From Triatoma infestans (Eukaryota; Arthropoda; Insecta; Hemiptera; Reduviidae): 64,000 bases of DNA. The stretch's first letter is position 1; each line of letters starts with the position of its first letter. A program made the position numbers and the translations under genes. The stretch is from assembly GCA_011037195.1 (NCBI GenBank), contig JAAEAF010000389.1:248001-312000 (forward strand). Direction: 5' to 3'. The notes under the pieces are model-generated. The model ran no database searches. It was given only the letters and a program-made list of their open reading frames with translations, and was not told the origin of the DNA. Below are positions 3,785 through 64,000 of this stretch, piece by piece.

Positions 3785-4210
3785 TCTGTTATCATAGCAT
3801 GTTTCTTACTTTAATTCTGATCTGGTTTCTGATGTTTCATCATCATCAGAGACTGATTCATAAAATTTTAAAGACACGATGACTTCTACTTTTCAAGTTT
3901 TTGACATACCGATTGATCATAACTAACATTCCACTAACCTGTATTTTTATATCAGTCTTACTTTATTTTTACTATTTTATTTTTGCTATTTCTTGCTGAA
4001 TTTTTACTTTTTTTTTTTTATTTTTTAGATATAAAAAGTCCTTATTTTGAATAAAAATTTTAATTATATATATACTAAATAAATATTTAACAATAAATAA
4101 TGAAAGTCAACGACTGAAAAAAACTTGCTAACACAGCCTCTGATGATGGAGTAAAATCTGTAACCGGTCAGAATGAAAACAAAAGGAGCATGCTATGACG
4201 GATATAAATC
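3785..4210. repeat. Fold-back element with hammerhead-like arms
   Basis: The arms at about 3788-3850 and 4135-4200 are imperfect inverted repeats; both carry CATAGCATG and the GATGATG / ACCGGTCAGAAT or GATCTGGTTTCTGATG blocks. On the minus strand the left arm reads CTGATGA, then TGATG-AAA-CATCA, then GAAAC, which is an intact CUGANGA box, a perfect 5-bp hairpin and a GAAA box. The right arm is more decayed (GTAACCGGTC). Confidence 0.5.
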
Positions 4211-4484
4211 AATCTCAGTTATTGTTCAGTATTGTGGACTCAACTATCTATTCAGAAAAATCAAATGTTTTGATTAAGACAAAACATATTCTGGACTTAA
4301 TGAAATGTTATACAGAGCTTTAATTAACCCAACAAAATTAATAACTTGTCTGATAATAATTATTTATTTGATAAGAGTGAAGTTTAACTTTAATATATTC
4401 GAATTAAAGTTCCTCCACCCAAACAAACGTAAATAACAAATCTCGCATTGTATGTTACAATTTCTCTACGACCCAACTATTACA

Positions 4485-5604: not shown

Positions 5605-6456
5605 AAATCTGGTGTGAAACACTCACACAACGTTCTCTTACTCCAGTTATGAAAATTATAATTGACAAATAATGTTATAGTTACTGTACCAAATTGAATG
5701 AAATTCGTCGAAAACCGAAAAAACAGTTCAGTAAAAGCGAACTTCCGGTTTACTAATTTCTTTGAAAGTTGGAATTTTGGCCATCTATTTATTTCTAATT
5801 AATTTTGTCTAGATGGTAGAATTGTATAATCAACTATGATAGCATTTTAAAGAAAAACATAACCCCACCCCTTCCCTAAAAGTGCCCTTAAATGAATGTT
5901 CCTAGAGAAATATTTTAAGTAAAAGTTGTAGATCTTTGTATGCGTAGTTTATATAGACGAAGTTTCAAGAAATCATCAGCCATTTTTGAGAAAATCGCAA
6001 AAAATGAAAAAACCATTTAGTAAAGTGTAAAGTAAACGCACTTCCGGTTATGCGATTTATTTCAAACTTGGAATTTCAACAATATATTTATTCTAAATTA
6101 ACATTATTTGATGAGCGAATTGTCCAATAAACTGAAATAGAACTTTAGATGAAAACCTAACCCACCCCTCCCCCAAAAGTGCCCTTAAATGAATTTTTCC
6201 AGAGAAATGGTTTCAAATAAAAGTTGTAGCTCTTTGTATGTTTTGATATACCAAGTTTGAAGAAAATCGTCGGAGCCATTTCTAGAAAATCGCAAAAAAG
6301 TAAAAAAACTACTACTGAAGTGGTATTTCCGGTTGCGGAATTTTGACAGATAACGTACTGTCAGATCCCTGTGTTTGGCATAAAGAGTGGGAAGAGCCCC
6401 GGTGGGGATGGTGTGATGGTTGAGTTTGTGAAGTGTGGGTTTGAGATTCTGAGAGG

Positions 6457-6867
6457 GTGTATACTAGTTTCTACAATGCGTGTTTCGAGTATGGGATGTT
6501 TCCTAATGTATGGAAAAGCGGGGTTATTGTTACATTGCTGAAGGGTGAGGAGAGAGATGTTGGTTTGGCTGCTTCGTATAGACCGATCTGTTTGCTTCCG
6601 GTGTTGGGAAAAGTTCTAGAGAGGTTGATTGTGATGAAAATGGAGAGTGTGTTCTATGAGAGTGTGTCTGTTAGGCAGTATGGGTTTATGAGAGGTAGAA
6701 GTACGGAGGATGCGATTGAACGATTGAGAAATGTGGTGGATGGTAAATCGGAAAAGTATGTACTAGGGATATTTTTGGATATGTCGGGTGCGTTTGACAG
6801 GGTGTGGTGGCCTGGTGTGCTTTGGGCATTGAGGAAAAGAGGTGTGAGTGGTGAGGATATAGGATAA
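6457..6867 (+). pseudogene. LINE reverse transcriptase, palm/fingers part
   Basis: An open 136-residue stretch within the R1-like LINE. It carries RT blocks 1-3 and the first catalytic aspartate block (FLDMSGAFDRVWW). It is interrupted just downstream, so the YADD-bearing part is in a separate open frame. Confidence 0.85.
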
Positions 6868-7020
6868 TGAAGGATTATTTGAGAGGGAGGTGGGCTGAGA
6901 TGATATGTGGTACGTGGAAGATCGGTAAAAGAGTGAATAGAGGATGTCCGCAGGGTTCGGTGTTGGGGTCCTCAGATATGGAAGGTTGTATTTGATGACT
7001 TTATAGGTGAGATTGAGAGG

Positions 7021-7992
7021 GTGGAAGGATGCGAGGTTATTGTGTACGCGGACGATGGTGTGGTGCTTGTGTGGGGCTATTCTAGGAAGCAGTTGGAAGA
7101 AAGAGGTGGTGTGATTATGGACATGATTGGTCAATGGTGTGAAGCCAGTAAAATGAAGTTGTCCAGAGACAAGACTGTGATAATGATGCTGAAGGGCATA
7201 TTGTCGGAGGATAGGCAGCCACGAGTTAAGATGGGTAGTCAGGTTTTGAAGGCAGTGAAACAAGTGAAATATCTGGGAGTAACGTGGAGTAGGCGCTTGT
7301 TTATTGCGGCCCACGTGGAAGAGGTGACGAAGAAGGCTAGGGAAAAGATGATGTCGGTGATGAGAATGATAAGGAGGAGTAGGGTGAGGTACGAGGTAGT
7401 AAGGAGGATATATGAGGGAATGTATGTGGCGATAGTAACGTATGCTGCAGGAGCATGGGCGGATCGACTGGATGTGAAAGGAAAAGGGAAGTTGCTGAGT
7501 GAACAGAGGAGAGTGCTGTTGAGTATGATAAGAGGTTATAGAACGTTGTCTGGGGATGCGTGTGTTGTGATTGCTGGGGTAATACCCATGGACTTGGAGG
7601 TTGAGAGGAGAAGAGTGATGAGTGTGATTAGGAGAAATGGACAAGTGGAATGGCAGGGTAAGTTGTTTGGCATCGGATGTAAGAAGAGTGTGAGGGACGA
7701 GGTGATGAGTATGTGGCAGGTAAGATGGAACGAGTCTAGTAGGGGTAGATGGACGTATGGATGGTGGAGTAGTGTGTTGGAGCGGTGTAGGTCATCATGG
7801 GTGGAGCCTGATTACTACGTCACTCAGTTGGTTGGTGGTCATGGGAATTTTAGTGGCAAGTTGTATACACTCGGGTTGTGTGAAAATGGGGAATGTAGGG
7901 GTGGTGTCGACGAGGAAAGCGTAGAGCACGTGTTTTTGAGTGTACGTTGTGGTGTGACATTAGAACTGAGTTTATGGCGAGAATGCGGTTGA
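7021..7992 (+). pseudogene. LINE reverse transcriptase, YADD block and C-terminal region
   Basis: An open 323-residue stretch containing VYADDGVVL, VKYLGVTWSRRL (thumb region), and the R1-like tail with SRGRWTYGWW, EPDYYVTQL and a Cys-rich segment ending near VRCGVTLEL. It belongs to the LINE at 6370-8501 and is not a host gene. The open frames on the opposite strand here are shadows created by its G-rich coding strand. Confidence 0.85.
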
Positions 7993-29338: not shown

Positions 29339-30891
29339 CATGAGACTTCAACAGGTTTAATGGTATATAACTTGTTTTAAAGGTGAAGTGCATTCTATTA
29401 GGGACAAATAAATGTCCTGTCAAAATTCTAAAATTGGGAAACTAATCGATTAGAAGTTGAAAAATGCAGTAAGAGTTAGTCGGGTGAGGAACCAGATGTT
29501 TTTGATGAAACACATGCAAGAATGGCGAAGAAGCTAATATCACGACAGCTACATTACGACTTCTAATAGGACTGTTATTTTTATAACGTGTGTAAAATGT
29601 TGACTTAGCAATTTCTCCATTTCTAATGTATTTAGTGCAATTTACTATATATATATGTAATCTTATTACGAGCAGTTAGACATAATTTGTATTATAACTG
29701 CGAAACAAAACAGAATAAATGAGAAAACTCAATCGGTTCAATTGAGTCATTCTTTTTTATTTTAATTAATGCATTCCTTAAATAATTAGGTTGAATATTG
29801 ATAACCTATTATCATTAACTCAAGATGTATTACATATTTGTTAATTTGATTTTAATAAATAGTTATTATTTCGGGGGGGAAAAAAATCTTCCCTAATTAA
29901 GGCAATAAACCTCAGTTTAGCCATTTTAAATGCTGTCACAAGACATGATTCTCAAGCAATACATTTAAGCCCCTTAACTTCCGCTGGTTCTTGCGAGGCA
30001 TTGCATCGTTATTTATTACTTTTTATCAATGGAAATAACATTTTGTGTTCCCCTGAGTCAGAAAAAGTCTTACTCTTTCTTTGTATGTGTTGTATGTAGG
30101 AGTGTTCTGTATTTGAACAGTATCAATCAAAAAATTAAATCGCTGGAAAAGCTCAGATCAAACTTGTTGTTAGTTTGTATATTACCAAGGTATACAAAAA
30201 TCAGAACCGGAAATATAACTTTATTAAATAGATTTTTCAATTTTTTGCGATTTTCTCAAAAAAGTGTTCGTTTAAATGTATTGTAACTCCAGCACTGGGG
30301 TCCAAAGGGGTAATGCGTCGCTTAAAGCCTCTGCACCTCAACTCCACTCTCGCCTTCCCGTGGTGGACCCTGTTAAACTAAGCAACTCTGACGGAGGTTG
30401 TGGTACCCAATCCCTTCGTACGTCAGAGTCAGTGAACTACGATGGGGGCCTTGGCTATTATTAGCCAGGGTGGCGTCAGTTGGCAGCAGGACTGACACCA
30501 AGGAGTGGCGGCGGAAGAACTCACAGTGGAGTCAACGGCGGCCTCCAAGGCAAGTTAGATGCCTACTGCGAAAGGGTAAGAGGAACTCTTGAGTCGTGGT
30601 GAAGACAACCTCCTAGGGGAAAGGAACCCCAAAATCAAAGCCTCTGGTCCTCCTAGTAGGGGGTTTAACGTCGGGCCAACTACCCTACCTTAGAAAAACT
30701 CATCAGTTACGAAACCCACAATACAAGGAATGGATGGAATTAATGGCAACGACACTGGCGATCAAAGGAAAAAGCATAAAGATCTGACCATGGCCACATG
30801 GGCGTACCATGTTGCAGCCAGGAAAAATGAATGAAATCGCAAATGAAATTTTGAAATATAATATAAATGTCGCGGCATTACAGGAGATAAG

Positions 30892-32049
30892 ATGGCCGGA
30901 CAAGGACAGATAGATAAAAAGAACTACTCTCTTATTTATAGTGGATCTGAGGTGAGAAAAGGGCATTTTGGAACGGGATTCATTGTCAGTAAAGCTATAA
31001 GGAAATCTTTGATTGGATATGAGACAATCAATGATAGAATATGTAAGATAAGAATAAGGGGAAAATTTAGAAACCTTTCAGTTATATCTGCTCACGCCCC
31101 CACTGAAGACAAGAGTGATGATGAAAAGGAAGCATTTTATGATGCGCTCAGCAGAGCCTATGAAGCGATTCCCAGATATGATGCTAAAGTGATTTTGGGA
31201 GACTTTAATGCACAGATTGGCAAAGAGGATTATGTAAGGAACATAGCTGGAAAATATACCTTACACGACGTAACAAATGACAATGGACAGCGCCTCGCGC
31301 AATTTGCAGCAGCATGCAATTTAAAAATTAAAAGTACCTTCTTCCCACACAAAACAATCCATTTGGGAACATGGAAAATCCCTGGAGGTGGGGTCAATCA
31401 AATAGATCATGTGCTGGTATCTGCCCGACATGCCTCAAGCATAATTAATGTGAGAACTTGTCGAGGGCCGAACTGTGATTCAGATCATTATTTGGTGAAA
31501 GCTGTGTTCAGGCACAGGCTGGCTAATTCGAAAAAAGGAAGTAGGTGCAAAAGAAAGAGATGGAATACGGACAGGCTACAAGAACAGCAATGTAAGACAC
31601 AATTTGCGGAAGTGCTGAGGGAGAGATTGGATGAGGGAGTGGAAGAGAGTGGAATCGAGGAGCAATGGAAAGGATTGAAGAAGGTGATTGAGGATACGGC
31701 TGACCAGGTGTTAGGGGAAAGGGTGCCAAGGAGGAATGAGGAATGGTTTGATGATGAGTGTCTGAGGGCAATAGAACAGAAGAATGCAGATAGATTAAAG
31801 GTACTACAGAGAGAGACTCGGAATAATAGGGAGCAGTATATCCAGAGCAGGAAAGTGGCGACAAAGTTGTGTAGAAGGAATAAGAGAGAATGGCTAAGAA
31901 AAAGGATAGAGAACATGGAGGAAATGAAGGAAACTAGAGAGGAAAGGAAGTTTTATCAGGCAGTGAAGAAAATGAGAAGAGGTTTCCAGCCCAAAATCAA
32001 TGGCTGTCGTAACAAGGAGGGACGGCTACTCAATGAAGAAATAAAGTAA
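30892..32049 (+). pseudogene. LINE APE-type endonuclease and linker
   Basis: 385 open residues. The true endonuclease start lies further upstream in another frame, with NEIANEILKYNINVAALQEI around 30820-30880 (the catalytic glutamate in ALQEIR); a single-base shift joins the two. Within this frame: FRNLSVISAHAPTEDK, the metal-binding VILGDFNAQIG (about 31190), TFFPHKTIHLGTWKIPG, NQIDHVLVSARH and the terminal CDSDHYLV, which are the APE/exonuclease III-like blocks that nick target DNA for target-primed reverse transcription. A Lys/Arg-rich linker leads toward the RT. Minus-strand open frames over the same stretch are shadows. Confidence 0.85.
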
Positions 32050-32693
32050 TGAATAGGTGGGTAGAACATTTTGAGGAAGTGCTGAATGGTGAGGAAAATG
32101 GAAGTGAAACAACATATGTATCCTATCGTAATCACGCAGATGCGGAACCAGACACGAGAGAGTCACCTGATATGGAACCACCATCGATCGAAGAATTTTT
32201 GGATGCAGTGGATCTCTTAAAGAATTGTAAAGCCCCTGGGGAGGACAATATACCTGCAGAATTGATAAAATTAGGTGATGAACTTCTTAATGATAGATTG
32301 TGTGCTCTGATACTTAGAATTTGGTTAGACGAAGAGATGCCGACTGAATGGTCTTCTGGCCTGGTCATACCAATTTTGAAAAAAGGGGACAAGACGACAT
32401 GCTGCAATTACAGAGGGATTACATTACTGAATGTTGCCTATAAGATATTGTCGAATCTCATAATGGCCCGACTGAAGGTGTATTCTGAACGTATTCTGAC
32501 AGACTACCAATGCGGCTTTAGACCTAATAGGGGTACCGCAGACCAGATCTTCATAATTAGGCAAACACTAGAGAAGTGTTACGAACACAATATAAATGTG
32601 CATCTGCTCTTTATTGACTTCAAACAAGCATTCGATAGAATTAACAGAGATCAATTAACACTTACTTTAAAGGAGTTTAAACATTCCCCTTAA
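32049..32693 (+). pseudogene. LINE reverse transcriptase, N-terminal blocks
   Basis: 214 residues: NRWVEHFEEVLNG leader, LKNCKAPGEDNIPAELIK, GLVIPILKKGDKTTCCNYRG, ITLLNVAYKILSNLIM, YQCGFRPNRGTADQIF and the first catalytic block LLFIDFKQAFDRI. It ends at a frameshift near 32670; the frame continues in 32704-33027. Confidence 0.85.
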
Positions 32694-32703
32694 ACTGATA
32701 AAT

Positions 32704-33027
32704 TTGATTAAGATGACAATGTTTCAAACCCGAGGTAAAGTTCTCATCGGCAACAGAATAAGTAAAGAATTTCGTTTCAACGGAGGAGTAAGACAGGGTG
32801 ATGCGTTATCGGCGGTCCTGTTTAACCTGGCTCTTCATAAAACCCTTCTGACAATTGAGCCGAAAGGAAGCTTGGCCACCAGAACCTCACAGGTCCTTGG
32901 GTATGCGGATGATATTGTGATTCTCGGAAGAAGTGAGAATGCATTAAGAGAGATCCTCACTGAACTGGTGACTGAAAGCAGAAAAGTTGGGCTGGAGATA
33001 AACATAGATAAAAGACCAAATACATGA
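32704..33027 (+). pseudogene. LINE reverse transcriptase, active-site block
   Basis: Contains NGGVRQGDALSAVLFNLAL and the catalytic LGYADDIVILGR (about 32895), then GLEINIDK before another single-base frameshift near 33020. Confidence 0.85.
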
Positions 33028-33704
33028 TGGTGTCGGCAGGTAAAAGAGGGCCAGCGACCGATTTCACGTTCAATGGGGTATCATTTGAATCTGTAGAACA
33101 CTTCACATACCTTGGAGTAAATATTAATTGCGAAAACAAGGTGAGCGAAGAAATTAAGAAACGCATCATGGCGGGAGGTCGAGCGTACTATGCTCTTGTA
33201 GGGTTATTCAAGTCGACACTTCTCTCCAGAGCCACAAAATTAAAGTTGTATAAGGCACTTGTCAGACCAGTGGTTTGTTACGGCGCCGAGTCTTGGACAT
33301 TTAAATTAGCGGACCAACACGTACTGGGTGTATTTGAAAGAAAAATTCTAAGACGAATTTATGGCCCAGTCTGTGTAAATGGTGAATGGCGCATAAGGAA
33401 CAACCAGGAACTGGAGAACCTGACAATGCATGAGAACATTTTAAGATATATAAAATCCCGCAGAATCAGCTGGCTGGGACACATCCTGAGGATGGAGGAC
33501 AGCAGGATGCCAAAGTTAATATTAGATAAGAACATGCCCGGCAAGAGGAAGAGAGGACGTCCTAGGAAGCGTTGGCTAGATGACGTGAGGGAAGACCTGG
33601 ACAGGATTGGTATGTCCAACTGGAGGCAGTTGGCATTGGACCGAGAGGCATGGCAGAGAATTGTTCGGGAGGCCAAAGCCACATCGGACTGTAGTGCAGG
33701 ATAA
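33024..33704 (+). pseudogene. LINE RT thumb and C-terminal region
   Basis: 226 residues ending about 13 bp before the GAA tail: FTYLGVNINCENKVSEEI, LVRPVVCYGAESWT, RRISWLGHILRMED, then the basic KRKRGRPRKRWLDDVR segment found at the C-terminus of RTE-type elements. Confidence 0.85.
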
Positions 33705-36625: not shown

Positions 36626-37153
36626 AAAAAAAAATAGGTATTCCATAACAGAAACATTTGAATTGTCTGAGGGCAGATTTAACAAACAGCTAACAGTATG
36701 CAGACCTTTTAGAATAGTGTTCAGAATAGAAACTGAAAGACAGAAATACTTATCTATCTGTAATAGTGATGTCTTTTTTCTCCAAAAAAGCGGTCATAAT
36801 GAAAACACTGTTGGAATTTGGCATTCATTTAATGATTCAAATTTATATCTGTTGAATTCGTTTTAGTATAATCGTAGCTAATGTTCTCTTGCCCCGTTTC
36901 GGACAATAATGTAATAGTTGTCACTTGACATTAATTTCACACATTTATTTCATATTTGGCCTTTAAATGGATAGAAACTTTTCTGAAAATTTACTATAAA
37001 GCAAAATAGATCTTGCAAATTGACCTAATATATTATTAAACCTATTAATTATTTATTAAATAGAACACTCTTAAATATGTCTTATTTTTATGTTTTATGT
37101 AGATCTTATTTAATAGAAGAGTTTTCAAAAACCATAAAACAAAGCAATAGGAT

Positions 37154-37415
37154 CAGAGACATTTTCCGTGGTAGCCTGCTTCATTTTGTGGTCATCGACC
37201 GGTTTCGGGCGTTCGCCCATCTTCAGGATGCGTTTTTCAGACAGTGTGTGCCAACACAGACTCGTACAGAGACTTAGTTTCACACTAACTCTCTTATGAA
37301 AAACGCATCCTGAAGATGGGCGAACGCCCGAAACCGGTCGATGACCACAAAATGAAGCAGGCTACCACGGAAAATGTCTCTGATGCTTTCCAGCTCTGCG
37401 GAACCAACCACCACA
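37154..37415. mobile_element. Fold-back retroelement with perfect arms, hammerhead-like motifs and 15-bp TSD
   Basis: TSD ACAAAGCAATAGGAT at 37139-37153 and 37416-37430. Arms 37154-37239 and 37297-37382 are perfect inverted repeats of 86 bp around a 57-bp loop. A 33-bp unpaired 3' tail (37383-37415) ends CCAACCACCACA. In the right arm (plus strand): CATC 37306-37309, CTGAAGA 37310-37316, GGGC-GAAC-GCCC hairpin 37318-37329, GAAA 37330-37333, palindromic ACCGGT 37333-37338, C 37339, GATG 37340-37343. That is the box order of a type I hammerhead ribozyme with a loopless stem III and a 4-bp stem I, plus one extra T after the first box. The left arm has the same on the minus strand. Penelope-like retroelements are known to carry such minimal hammerheads; assignment to that group is inference. 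Confidence 0.8.
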
Positions 37416-37439
37416 ACAAAGCAATAGGATTTGAGACTT

Positions 37440-58943: not shown

Positions 58944-59745
58944 TTAAAACGGCGCATCCGCAGGATTATTAATTTCCTTTATTGCAGGTAGAAACTCGCG
59001 TAACTTGACGGGATTGGCATGCCTCCATATATATTCTGCCAAATGTCCGTCGAACTGCCTTCAACAATGATTAGTGGGTAACTAGCGCTTGATGGCGGTC
59101 CCATCATGTGTGGAGCCCTCGTTTCAGGGTCTTTGACTTGTAGGTAGTGGTTTACAGTCAGATGCCTGTATCCTTCATCTTCAAAGTTACCATAAGACTT
59201 CCAACTATCCGATATAATTGTCGTACCCGGTAATACGGAAGACTTGATAATGACCAACTGGGTGTCCTTCCCTCTATTTTCAACGACCCTGAAAAACATT
59301 CTATTTGATCCCCGTTCCACGCCCCCAAATACCCATCTACCTTCAACCGCCCTTCCCCTATTTTATTTTCTCCAAACTTGCATTCACTCCTCAAATTGCA
59401 CTATTTTCTTTTATACATATTTCCATGCACATCTCTCTACAAAAACATTTCCAATCAACCAGTATTCCATTCGCTACATCCATATTTTTTAAAATATCAC
59501 ATATACTCATTTTACTACATTCGAACCATGATCCTTTTCTTACATACATATTCACATCATCATCTCCAAAATCATCTTCCCCTCTATATCACCACATATA
59601 CCTTACACTTTTCTTACATACCAGATTCATAATTCTATCACAAACTCCACACATTTTCGTTCAGAAGCAATCATACATTCTTCATACACAAATCAATCAC
59701 ATCACGCCCAACCTTACCCTTCAACGTGTATTAAGTCCATAGCTT
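58944..59745 (-). pseudogene. Merlin (IS1595/ISXO2-like) DNA-transposon transposase, frameshifted
   Basis: Read on the minus strand with frame changes: VRKGSWFECSKMSICDIL (about 59540), LVDWKCFCREMCMEI (about 59450), then GRWVFGGVERGSNRMFF (about 59330-59290), LPGTTIISDSWKSY with the catalytic-region aspartate (about 59215), GYRHLTVNHYL, DPETRAPH and a C-terminal HLAEYIWRHANPVKLREFLP to a stop at 58944. This is the DDE-type IS1595-like fold used by Merlin elements. The ISxxxWKxY and HxxVNH strings are diagnostic. Two or more frameshifts and a stop inactivate it. Terminal inverted repeats and the short TSD of Merlin were not located. Overlapping plus-strand open frames (59305-59742) are shadows. 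Confidence 0.8.
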
Positions 59746-63590: not shown

Positions 63591-63610
63591 CACACAATAT
63601 ATCTTTCTCA

Positions 63611-63880
63611 TTGTTGAATATGCGGATGGATCCGCAATGCTGGATAACATATGGTATTTTATCCGTCGCAGCATGCATATTTATGTTCTTTCTGACCGGT
63701 TTCGGATTTTCATCCATCATCAGAGCAAATTAACCAAGTTACCATTACATAATTAACAGAAACATTACGTTGAAGTGAACTCTCTACACGAACTTGGTTA
63801 ATTTGCTCCGACGATGGATGAAAACCTGAAACCGGTCAGGAAGAACATAAACATGCATGCTGCATCGGATAAAATACCAG
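63611..63880. mobile_element. Fold-back retroelement, second copy, 12-bp TSD
   Basis: TSD ATATCTTTCTCA at 63599-63610 and 63881-63892. Arms 63652-63740 and 63791-63879 are nearly complementary around a ~50-bp loop. On the minus strand the left arm reads CTGATGA, T, GGAT-GAAA-ATCC, GAAACCGGTC, the same box order as in the 37154-37415 element. The right arm carries CCGACGA and GAAACCGGTC. The minus-strand 3' end (ATCCAGCATTGCGGATCCAT ... CAACAA) resembles the tail of the first copy (TTCCAGCTCTGCGGAACCAA). The minus-strand open frame across it is a by-product. Confidence 0.7.
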
Positions 63881-64000
63881 ATATCTTTCTCACTTTATGT
63901 ATATAATTAGTGAGCGAAGTTTAAATTATAGTATAGTATGGCGAGGAAATCGTATTTTCTAAATTTTAAGTATAGTATGCGAGAAAATAACGGAAAACTG

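Follow-up and report, generated by a model that had tools for sequence, protein, structure and literature searches.

Based on the anatomy of a 261-bp insertion at positions 37154-37414 of a 64-kb stretch of the Triatoma infestans genome (the window, meaning the whole 64,000 nucleotides analysed) and on its relatives throughout the assembly, we propose that the insertion is a head-to-head pair of leader copies of a Penelope-like element (PLE), probably created in a single insertion event in which both 3' ends of the cut target served as primers. The arms themselves very likely correspond to the 5' leader ('pLTR') and the beginning of the open reading frame (ORF) of a Penelope/Poseidon-type element; priming on both target strands, taken as a claim of its own, appears likely, with somewhat less confidence. 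The initial annotation of this DNA had already suggested that the insertion was made by reverse transcription and bears a hammerhead of the PLE kind, and both suggestions are supported here, whereas its description of a tiny non-autonomous, retrozyme-like relative gives way to that of two leaders with ORF starts placed head to head.

The insertion is bounded on both sides by an exact direct repeat, AACAAAGCAATAGGAT; the duplication had been recognized before as one of 15 bp, and its length is corrected here to 16 bp. A few junction bases at either side are common to the duplication and to the element's own ends. Inverted arms at 37149-37239 and 37297-37387 are identical at 90 of 91 bases, rather than forming two perfect arms of 86 bp as first reported, and because of this agreement the insertion is considered young, as had been proposed. 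The arm on the reverse strand runs from a 5' start near 37290, marked by the Inr-like AGTTAGTG, to an outer end at 37154, at a fixed point (S, TCTCTG) that recurs in other copies, and the tail of the forward arm comprises 32 nt up to the duplication, or 36 nt counting the bases common with it. Both arms contain, in the order originally described, CATC / CTGAAGA / T / GGGC GAAC GCCC / GAA / ACCGGT / C / GATG (37306-37343 on the forward strand; mirrored on the reverse strand, with the motif at 37198-37226), and the fold-back with a hammerhead layout in each arm is real. A few bases (AG, AGAG, CTAAG) just before the common 5' start AGTTAGTG occur at 37291-37296 and in L013, L015, L018 and other loci; they are absent from long copies and may represent either subfamily sequence or untemplated bases. 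All features are listed in Table 1.

Table 1. Coordinates in the window of the features assigned from sequence (TSD, target site duplication).
Feature	Position	Strand	Remarks
TSD, left copy	37138..37153	.	AACAAAGCAATAGGAT; 16 nt, exact repeat
TSD, right copy	37415..37430	.	AACAAAGCAATAGGAT; 16 nt, exact repeat
Tail-less (S) arm, PLE leader	37154..37290	-	alignment to reference unit; starts at reference position 165
Centre junction between arms	37291..37296	.	6 bp
Tailed (T) arm	37297..37414	+	5' side truncated; AC-rich tail ...GCGGAACCAACCACCAC at end
Optional tail	37383..37414	+	on the + arm only at this locus
Hammerhead-like ribozyme, - copy	37193..37230	-	predicted cleavage after C at 37197; pattern and structural scan
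Hammerhead-like ribozyme, + copy	37306..37343	+	predicted cleavage base C37339; pattern and structural scan
Stem I of + hammerhead	37306-37309/37340-37343	+	
Box CTGAAGA of + hammerhead	37310-37316	+	
Extra T of + hammerhead	37317	+	
Stem II of + hammerhead	37318-37321/37326-37329	+	
GAA of + hammerhead	37330-37332	+	
Palindromic stem III (ACCGGT) of + hammerhead	37333-37338	+	
PLE ORF start	37316..37417	+	MGERPKPVDDHKMKQATTENVSDAFQLCGTNHHN; overlaps ribozyme, last bases enter the duplication
Second, independent fold-back, PLE family 2	63599..63892	.	12-bp duplications ATATCTTTCTCA at 63599-63610 and 63881-63892 (found by reading)
Arms of family 2 fold-back	within 63599..63892		tailed left (-), tail-less right (+)
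Hammerheads of family 2 fold-back	near 63686-63731 (-) and 63800-63845 (+)		
Old single PLE leader remnant	4132-4250	+	degraded hammerhead (CTGATGATGGAGTAAAATCTGTAACCGGTC), motif near 4132-4177

The genome search for other copies that had been recommended was performed with the motif CTGANGATG-N2-20-CGAAACCGGT, which occurs 25,239 times in the 941-Mb genome, with no occurrence of the same pattern read backward as a control; in the 64-kb window it is found three times, against 0.00 expected from window shuffles. Among 100 listed motif places, two main families are distinguished by stem II, GGGC GAAC GCCC in family 1 and GGAT GAAA ATCC in family 2, and a 26-base piece of the coding part of family 1 is present 11,859 times in the genome. 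These copy counts may be somewhat inflated, because two pairs of the loci examined (L019/L020 and L031/L037) are duplicates with identical 700-bp downstream flanks, corresponding either to assembly duplicates or to segmental duplications. The window carries one fold-back per family, the insertion at 37154-37414 for family 1 and another at about 63611-63880 for family 2. Other mobile elements are also found in this DNA: broken ORFs of non-LTR retrotransposons occupy 6445-7992 and 30862-33704 on the forward strand (reverse transcriptase in both, endonuclease in the second), and a fragment of an ISXO2-like transposase domain lies at 58979-59362 on the reverse strand. Elsewhere in the genome, a family 1 fold-back (L033, 641-1764) sits inside the reverse transcriptase of another PLE, a case of nested insertion.

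The assignment of the arms to a PLE is founded on the coding sequence that they contain and on the company that they keep. The start codon consists of the A of box 1, the extra T and the next G, and the frame beginning at 37316 (MGERPKPVDDHK...) stays open to the end of the arm, for 35 codons including the flank; family 2 would encode a similar peptide (MDENPKPV...). Extension of the two single copies with a long upstream part (L077 and L100) revealed a broken PLE ORF upstream of the family 1 pLTR in both. In L127/L100, the C-terminal part of the reverse transcriptase and an endonuclease part are followed by a 3' region and then by the family 1 pLTR (best tblastn E 8e-35; Pfam GIY-YIG 2.6e-4, 21.7 bits, just below the 22.6 cut-off), and an inverted tailed piece lies on the 5' side of the ORF. 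L126/L077 gives only a weaker endonuclease match (best tblastn E 1e-12), the Pfam GIY-YIG domain being absent. An intact gene with exactly the family 1 leader was not found, only truncated ones; an open PLE ORF of 808 aa from another family is present in the same genome (reverse transcriptase 29.0 bits for a cut-off of 29.6, GIY-YIG 28.1 bits for a cut-off of 22.6), in the layout inverted pLTR - pLTR - ORF - pLTR and with its own hammerhead. Sixteen relatives of this ORF were recognized among the best 7,995 candidates scored in the protein collection, two of them bearing insect names (a ladybird and an ant). Hammerheads are located within about 1.5 kb of 14 of 20 GIY-YIG loci, as well as in L121 and L125 among five further reverse transcriptase stretches; none was found in L122-L124, and L123 and L124 remained negative even in a laxer scan. 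L122 was rejected as a PLE stretch, since its translation reads as that of another, LINE-like retroelement. Two other identities of the insertion were discarded. A miRNA precursor scores 71.3 bits against 150 for Rfam MIR5380 and 67.5 against 99 for MIR6136, values that are due to the long hairpin, and a DNA element such as a Helitron was dismissed by reading, in view of the duplications and of the beginning of a PLE ORF.

Most outer ends of the arms coincide with one of two points: S comes after TCTCTG, and T lies in an AC-rich stretch about 35 nt beyond it. The consecutive sample consists of the first 72 of the 100 listed motif places, in 69 loci, of which 57 were assigned to family 1 and 11 to family 2, with L090 unplaced; the later classification of family 2 places L090 in that family, and L095, counted among the 57, is by sequence a relative of family 2. 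The 57 family 1 loci, examined over 1.2 kb each (3 kb for the first nine), include 33 head-to-head pairs: 29 have one tail, two have no tail, none has two tails, and in two an arm is cut short. In the remaining 24 loci the examined stretch contains a single arm (15 ending at S and 9 at T), and some of these single arms are the ends of longer elements. One tail is thus present in 29 of the 31 classifiable family 1 pairs and two tails in none (binomial p 2e-7), and in one of the two exceptions a tail seems to be present but internally deleted. The same arrangement is seen in all 30 similarity-picked loci, among which are the window copy and two duplicate pairs, and in all eight classifiable pairs of family 2 (the window copy counted in), the other family 2 loci being five pairs with a cut-short arm and ten single arms; the family 2 tally counts the duplicate L020. 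A stricter alignment, which leaves out L010 (the same place as L009) and the duplicates L020 and L037 (of L019 and L031, respectively), yields 51 one-tail and three no-tail pairs; the two alignments disagree on L089, one-tail in one and no-tail in the other.

Target site duplications accompany these pairs. An exact repeat of at least 9 nt at the ends or at most 8 nt from them was detected in 41 of 59 one-tail pairs, with a mode of 12-13, against 28 of 3,422 mismatched flanks used as a control; a clear duplication is absent from the other 18 (this count leaves out L010 and keeps both duplicates). The characters of PLEs, namely inverted and/or direct pLTRs that may carry a tail at one end, duplications of variable length and a hammerhead in the pLTR, are all found, the last in both arms of the insertion at 37154-37414. 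The arm starts at the centre of the pairs are more variable. The A of the Inr-like CTCAGTTAGTG (reference position 165) is the start of one or both arms in 14 of 54 pairs, 12 of which were picked by similarity, and the many arm starts at position 184 are to be read as bounds only, because subfamilies diverge there. With an offset threshold of 15 nt, the tail-less arm extends further 5' in 30 of the 51 one-tail pairs, the reverse holds in six and neither in 15; restricted to the 23 consecutive pairs, the comparison gives eight with a tail-less arm longer at its 5' side, four with a shorter one and 11 with equal arms. We claim only the existence of longer tail-less arms, because the bias of 30 to 6 comes mostly from similarity-picked loci (22 to 2, compared with 8 to 4 in the consecutive ones).

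Two fixed outer ends point to two starts of reverse transcription, one on each target strand. We envisage that the leader RNA would start near the Inr-like site, fold a minimal hammerhead over the AUG and run into the ORF. The PLE enzyme would cut the target in a staggered manner, leaving a duplication that is mostly of 12-13 bp and of 16 bp at 37154-37414. Both target 3' ends would then prime reverse transcription on leader RNA, presumably on two template molecules, with entry at the AC-rich tail site (T) for one end and about 35 nt upstream, at the inner site (S), for the other, and the two cDNAs would extend toward the 5' end of the RNA and be joined in the middle. Whether PLE insertion is inherently asymmetric and two-stranded, so that the tail site serves one 3' end, the inner site serves the second and the tail site never serves both, is a more general proposition, for and against which we hold the chances to be evenly balanced.

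The principal alternative, which we regard as unlikely, is a snap-back (self-priming) process, in which a single cDNA or antisense RNA folds at the end of the leader and is copied into inverted arms. Head-to-head inverted pLTRs with palindromic junctions have been read in this manner in a rotifer (PMC3846280), and the near identity of the two arms at 37154-37414 agrees with such an origin. Against it, an arm that lacks the tail and has more 5' sequence can be neither a copy nor a simple template of the other arm: the tailed arm is not copyable from the tail-less one, nor the tail-less arm from one that lacks its 5' part, and this combination is present in the window and in the 30 one-tail pairs mentioned above (eight of the 23 consecutive ones). 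Self-priming also leaves unexplained why the second outer end should be a fixed point. The inequality of the arms could have arisen by later loss at the centre of the palindrome, since long palindromes are unstable, and such losses would mimic what two-strand priming produces directly. We nevertheless favour priming from both target strands.

A structural scan for the hammerhead layout, allowing 0-3 extra bases, found only the two arms of 37154-37414 in the 64-kb window, and 1.6 Mb of sequence simulated from the window by a Markov model gave no match; it misses the family 2 copy of the window because stem I of family 2 has a mismatch. In 78 aligned cores (77 of 110 distinct cores, the similarity-picked ones being left out, plus the window's own arm), 86.8% of the cells are paired, against 78.5% after shuffling and 20-44% with partners slid by 1-3 columns, and 96 cells have two-sided changes against 39.5 in shuffles, although this covariation represents few events because most of it falls between the two families. 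Two other measures on these cores do not exceed the shuffles, namely pairs with both sides changed (6 against 6.2) and further pair types (17 against 16.5). The core CUGANGA ... GAA ... UH is accompanied on the 78 sequences by covarying stems I and II, and stem III hardly varies.

The T between box 1 and stem II had been viewed as a departure from the hammerhead consensus. The extra base is indeed present, but it is no chance flaw: it supplies the U of the AUG start codon. Among 22 loci fetched for reverse transcriptase or endonuclease and not for the motif (L101-L121 and L125; L122-L124, L126 and L127 being left out), 16 contain hammerheads, 25 in total including a family 1 copy in L120, and exactly one extra base is present in all 25. 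In the pattern-fetched loci one extra base is found in 93 cases, two in 2 and none in 0, a count biased by the pattern itself, which fixes that base. Other families have stems I and II that differ in sequence and still pair: AGGTA/TACCT with GATTAT/ATAATC, AATTTTTACC/GGTAGAAATT with GGCAA/TTGCC and TGTTC/GAACG with GACAAAC/GTTTGTC in the structural scan, GTTC/GAAT with GGACACC/GGTGTCC in L004, and TCC/GGA with GACAA/TTGTC in a laxer scan. Their stem III is a palindrome, ACCGGT or ACGT. Given the 25 of 25, the differing but pairing stems and the lack of simulated matches, it seems that the PLE hammerheads of this genome regularly possess the extra base and a stem III that has no loop. The canonical geometry, with stem II directly after A9 and a loop on stem III, is not what is found, and the motif is therefore a PLE variant and not a canonical type I hammerhead. 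The Rfam check suggested earlier gave no hammerhead match at E<=10 on the insertion stretch, nor at gathering scores over the whole window, but this test cannot decide the matter because L121 and L125, in which hammerheads lie beside long open PLE ORFs, and L111, all of which bear PLE hammerheads, do not match at E<=10 either. With four stretches unmatched at this permissive threshold, Rfam hammerhead searches can evidently miss the PLE variant.

It is conceivable, but a little less likely still than self-priming, that the layout is inert and was kept only as code for the PLE N-terminus and through copying from a few masters. The overlap of the motif with the open frame and the recent common ancestry of the copies are compatible with this idea, as is the behaviour of Poseidon of Anolis carolinensis (PAc), whose ribozyme cleaves in vitro only when protein is present (PMC11167929). 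Moreover, an extra core nucleotide is said to weaken a viroid hammerhead (PMC11014351), and by analogy the extra T may weaken cleavage here. However, the motif of another family lies upstream of the ORF (in L121, motif at 526 and ATG at 679), and across families stems I and II change in sequence while still pairing. Self-cleavage would take place in the parent transcript, probably as a dimer; the self-complementary stem III, correctly singled out before as suited to a dimeric ribozyme, is consistent with this, and PMC7761336 and PMC6466107 describe minimal PLE hammerheads in which helix III is largely missing and which may self-cleave in dimeric form. The ribozyme had also been said to be readable from both strands, which is true of the DNA; for RNA transcribed across the entire locus, however, the prediction is a single long hairpin (-195.6 kcal/mol) in which the ribozyme fold is buried. 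The fold-back copy is thus unlikely to act as a ribozyme, and any such function would belong to the parent PLE transcript. Nor need the ribozyme take part in insertion, since mutants of the PAc ribozyme do not alter insertion in vitro (PMC11167929).

A separate retrozyme-like element, non-autonomous and spreading by way of circular RNAs that its ribozyme produces, would account for the small size, the hammerheads, the duplications longer than 4 bp and the high copy number, but it is highly improbable, since the copies examined are inverted or single rather than tandem repeats with a canonical type I hammerhead, their core includes an additional base, their stem III has no loop, and their ends are not at the cleavage site but delimit a PLE leader and ORF start.

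If two-strand priming is correct, the leader-only fold-backs abundant in this genome would constitute a genomic record of an asymmetric two-strand reaction, and this account would take the place of self-priming as the explanation of inverted Penelope copies. With about 25,000 motif copies, two sharp ends and the one-tail rule, the priming question becomes countable, and a direct assay could use the fold-back copies as natural substrates.

Earlier publications already describe hammerheads in PLEs, inverted pLTRs, tails and the extension of both strands by a PLE enzyme; the interesting part is the one-tail rule. In the literature surveyed through titles and the beginnings of abstracts, with most subscription papers outside it, none was found to tie inverted Penelope copies to two-strand priming. 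Lunse et al. 2017 reportedly described small hammerhead variants of PLEs that cleave as dimers, and, compared by description only, a short stem III with a palindrome, a dimer design and the PLE context are common to those variants and ours. De la Pena and Flores 2001 are said to have described a viroid hammerhead with an extra core nucleotide (CChMVd), an A between the A of box 1 and stem II; one extra core base is likewise present in the Triatoma PLE, where it is a U instead of an A, and the viroid is not a retroelement. Animal non-LTR retrozymes, as characterized in PMC7229834, are tandem repeats with canonical type I hammerheads and circular RNAs, and share with our elements the small hammerhead-bearing repeats and the longer duplications. 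Another parallel is Penelope of the rotifer Adineta vaga (PMC3846280), which likewise has inverted pLTRs that include the first ORF codons, duplications (of 8-10 bp) and a tail (of 31 bp) on one inverted pLTR. It is present in low copy number and its authors favour self-priming; in contrast, the Triatoma elements are present in very many copies, their pLTRs often enclose no ORF, and the unequal lengths of their arms speak against simple self-priming. A further comparison is with PAc (PMC11167929), in which the hammerhead also overlaps the ORF start, C3 and G8 preceding the start codon. It is cut 26 bp after the start codon, compared with a predicted 24 nt at 37154-37414, and reverse transcription begins within an AC-rich stem-loop, 111-118 bp downstream of the ORF start, compared with about 100 nt in the Triatoma element. 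Tandem loci were described for PAc, whereas the Triatoma sample consists mostly of head-to-head leader-only pairs (33 of the 57 family 1 loci). The optional 30-40 bp tail of PAc corresponds to the interval between two reverse transcription start sites, and its enzyme cuts and extends both strands; two-strand priming in Triatoma would fit such an enzyme, because PAc extends both strands from two start sites.
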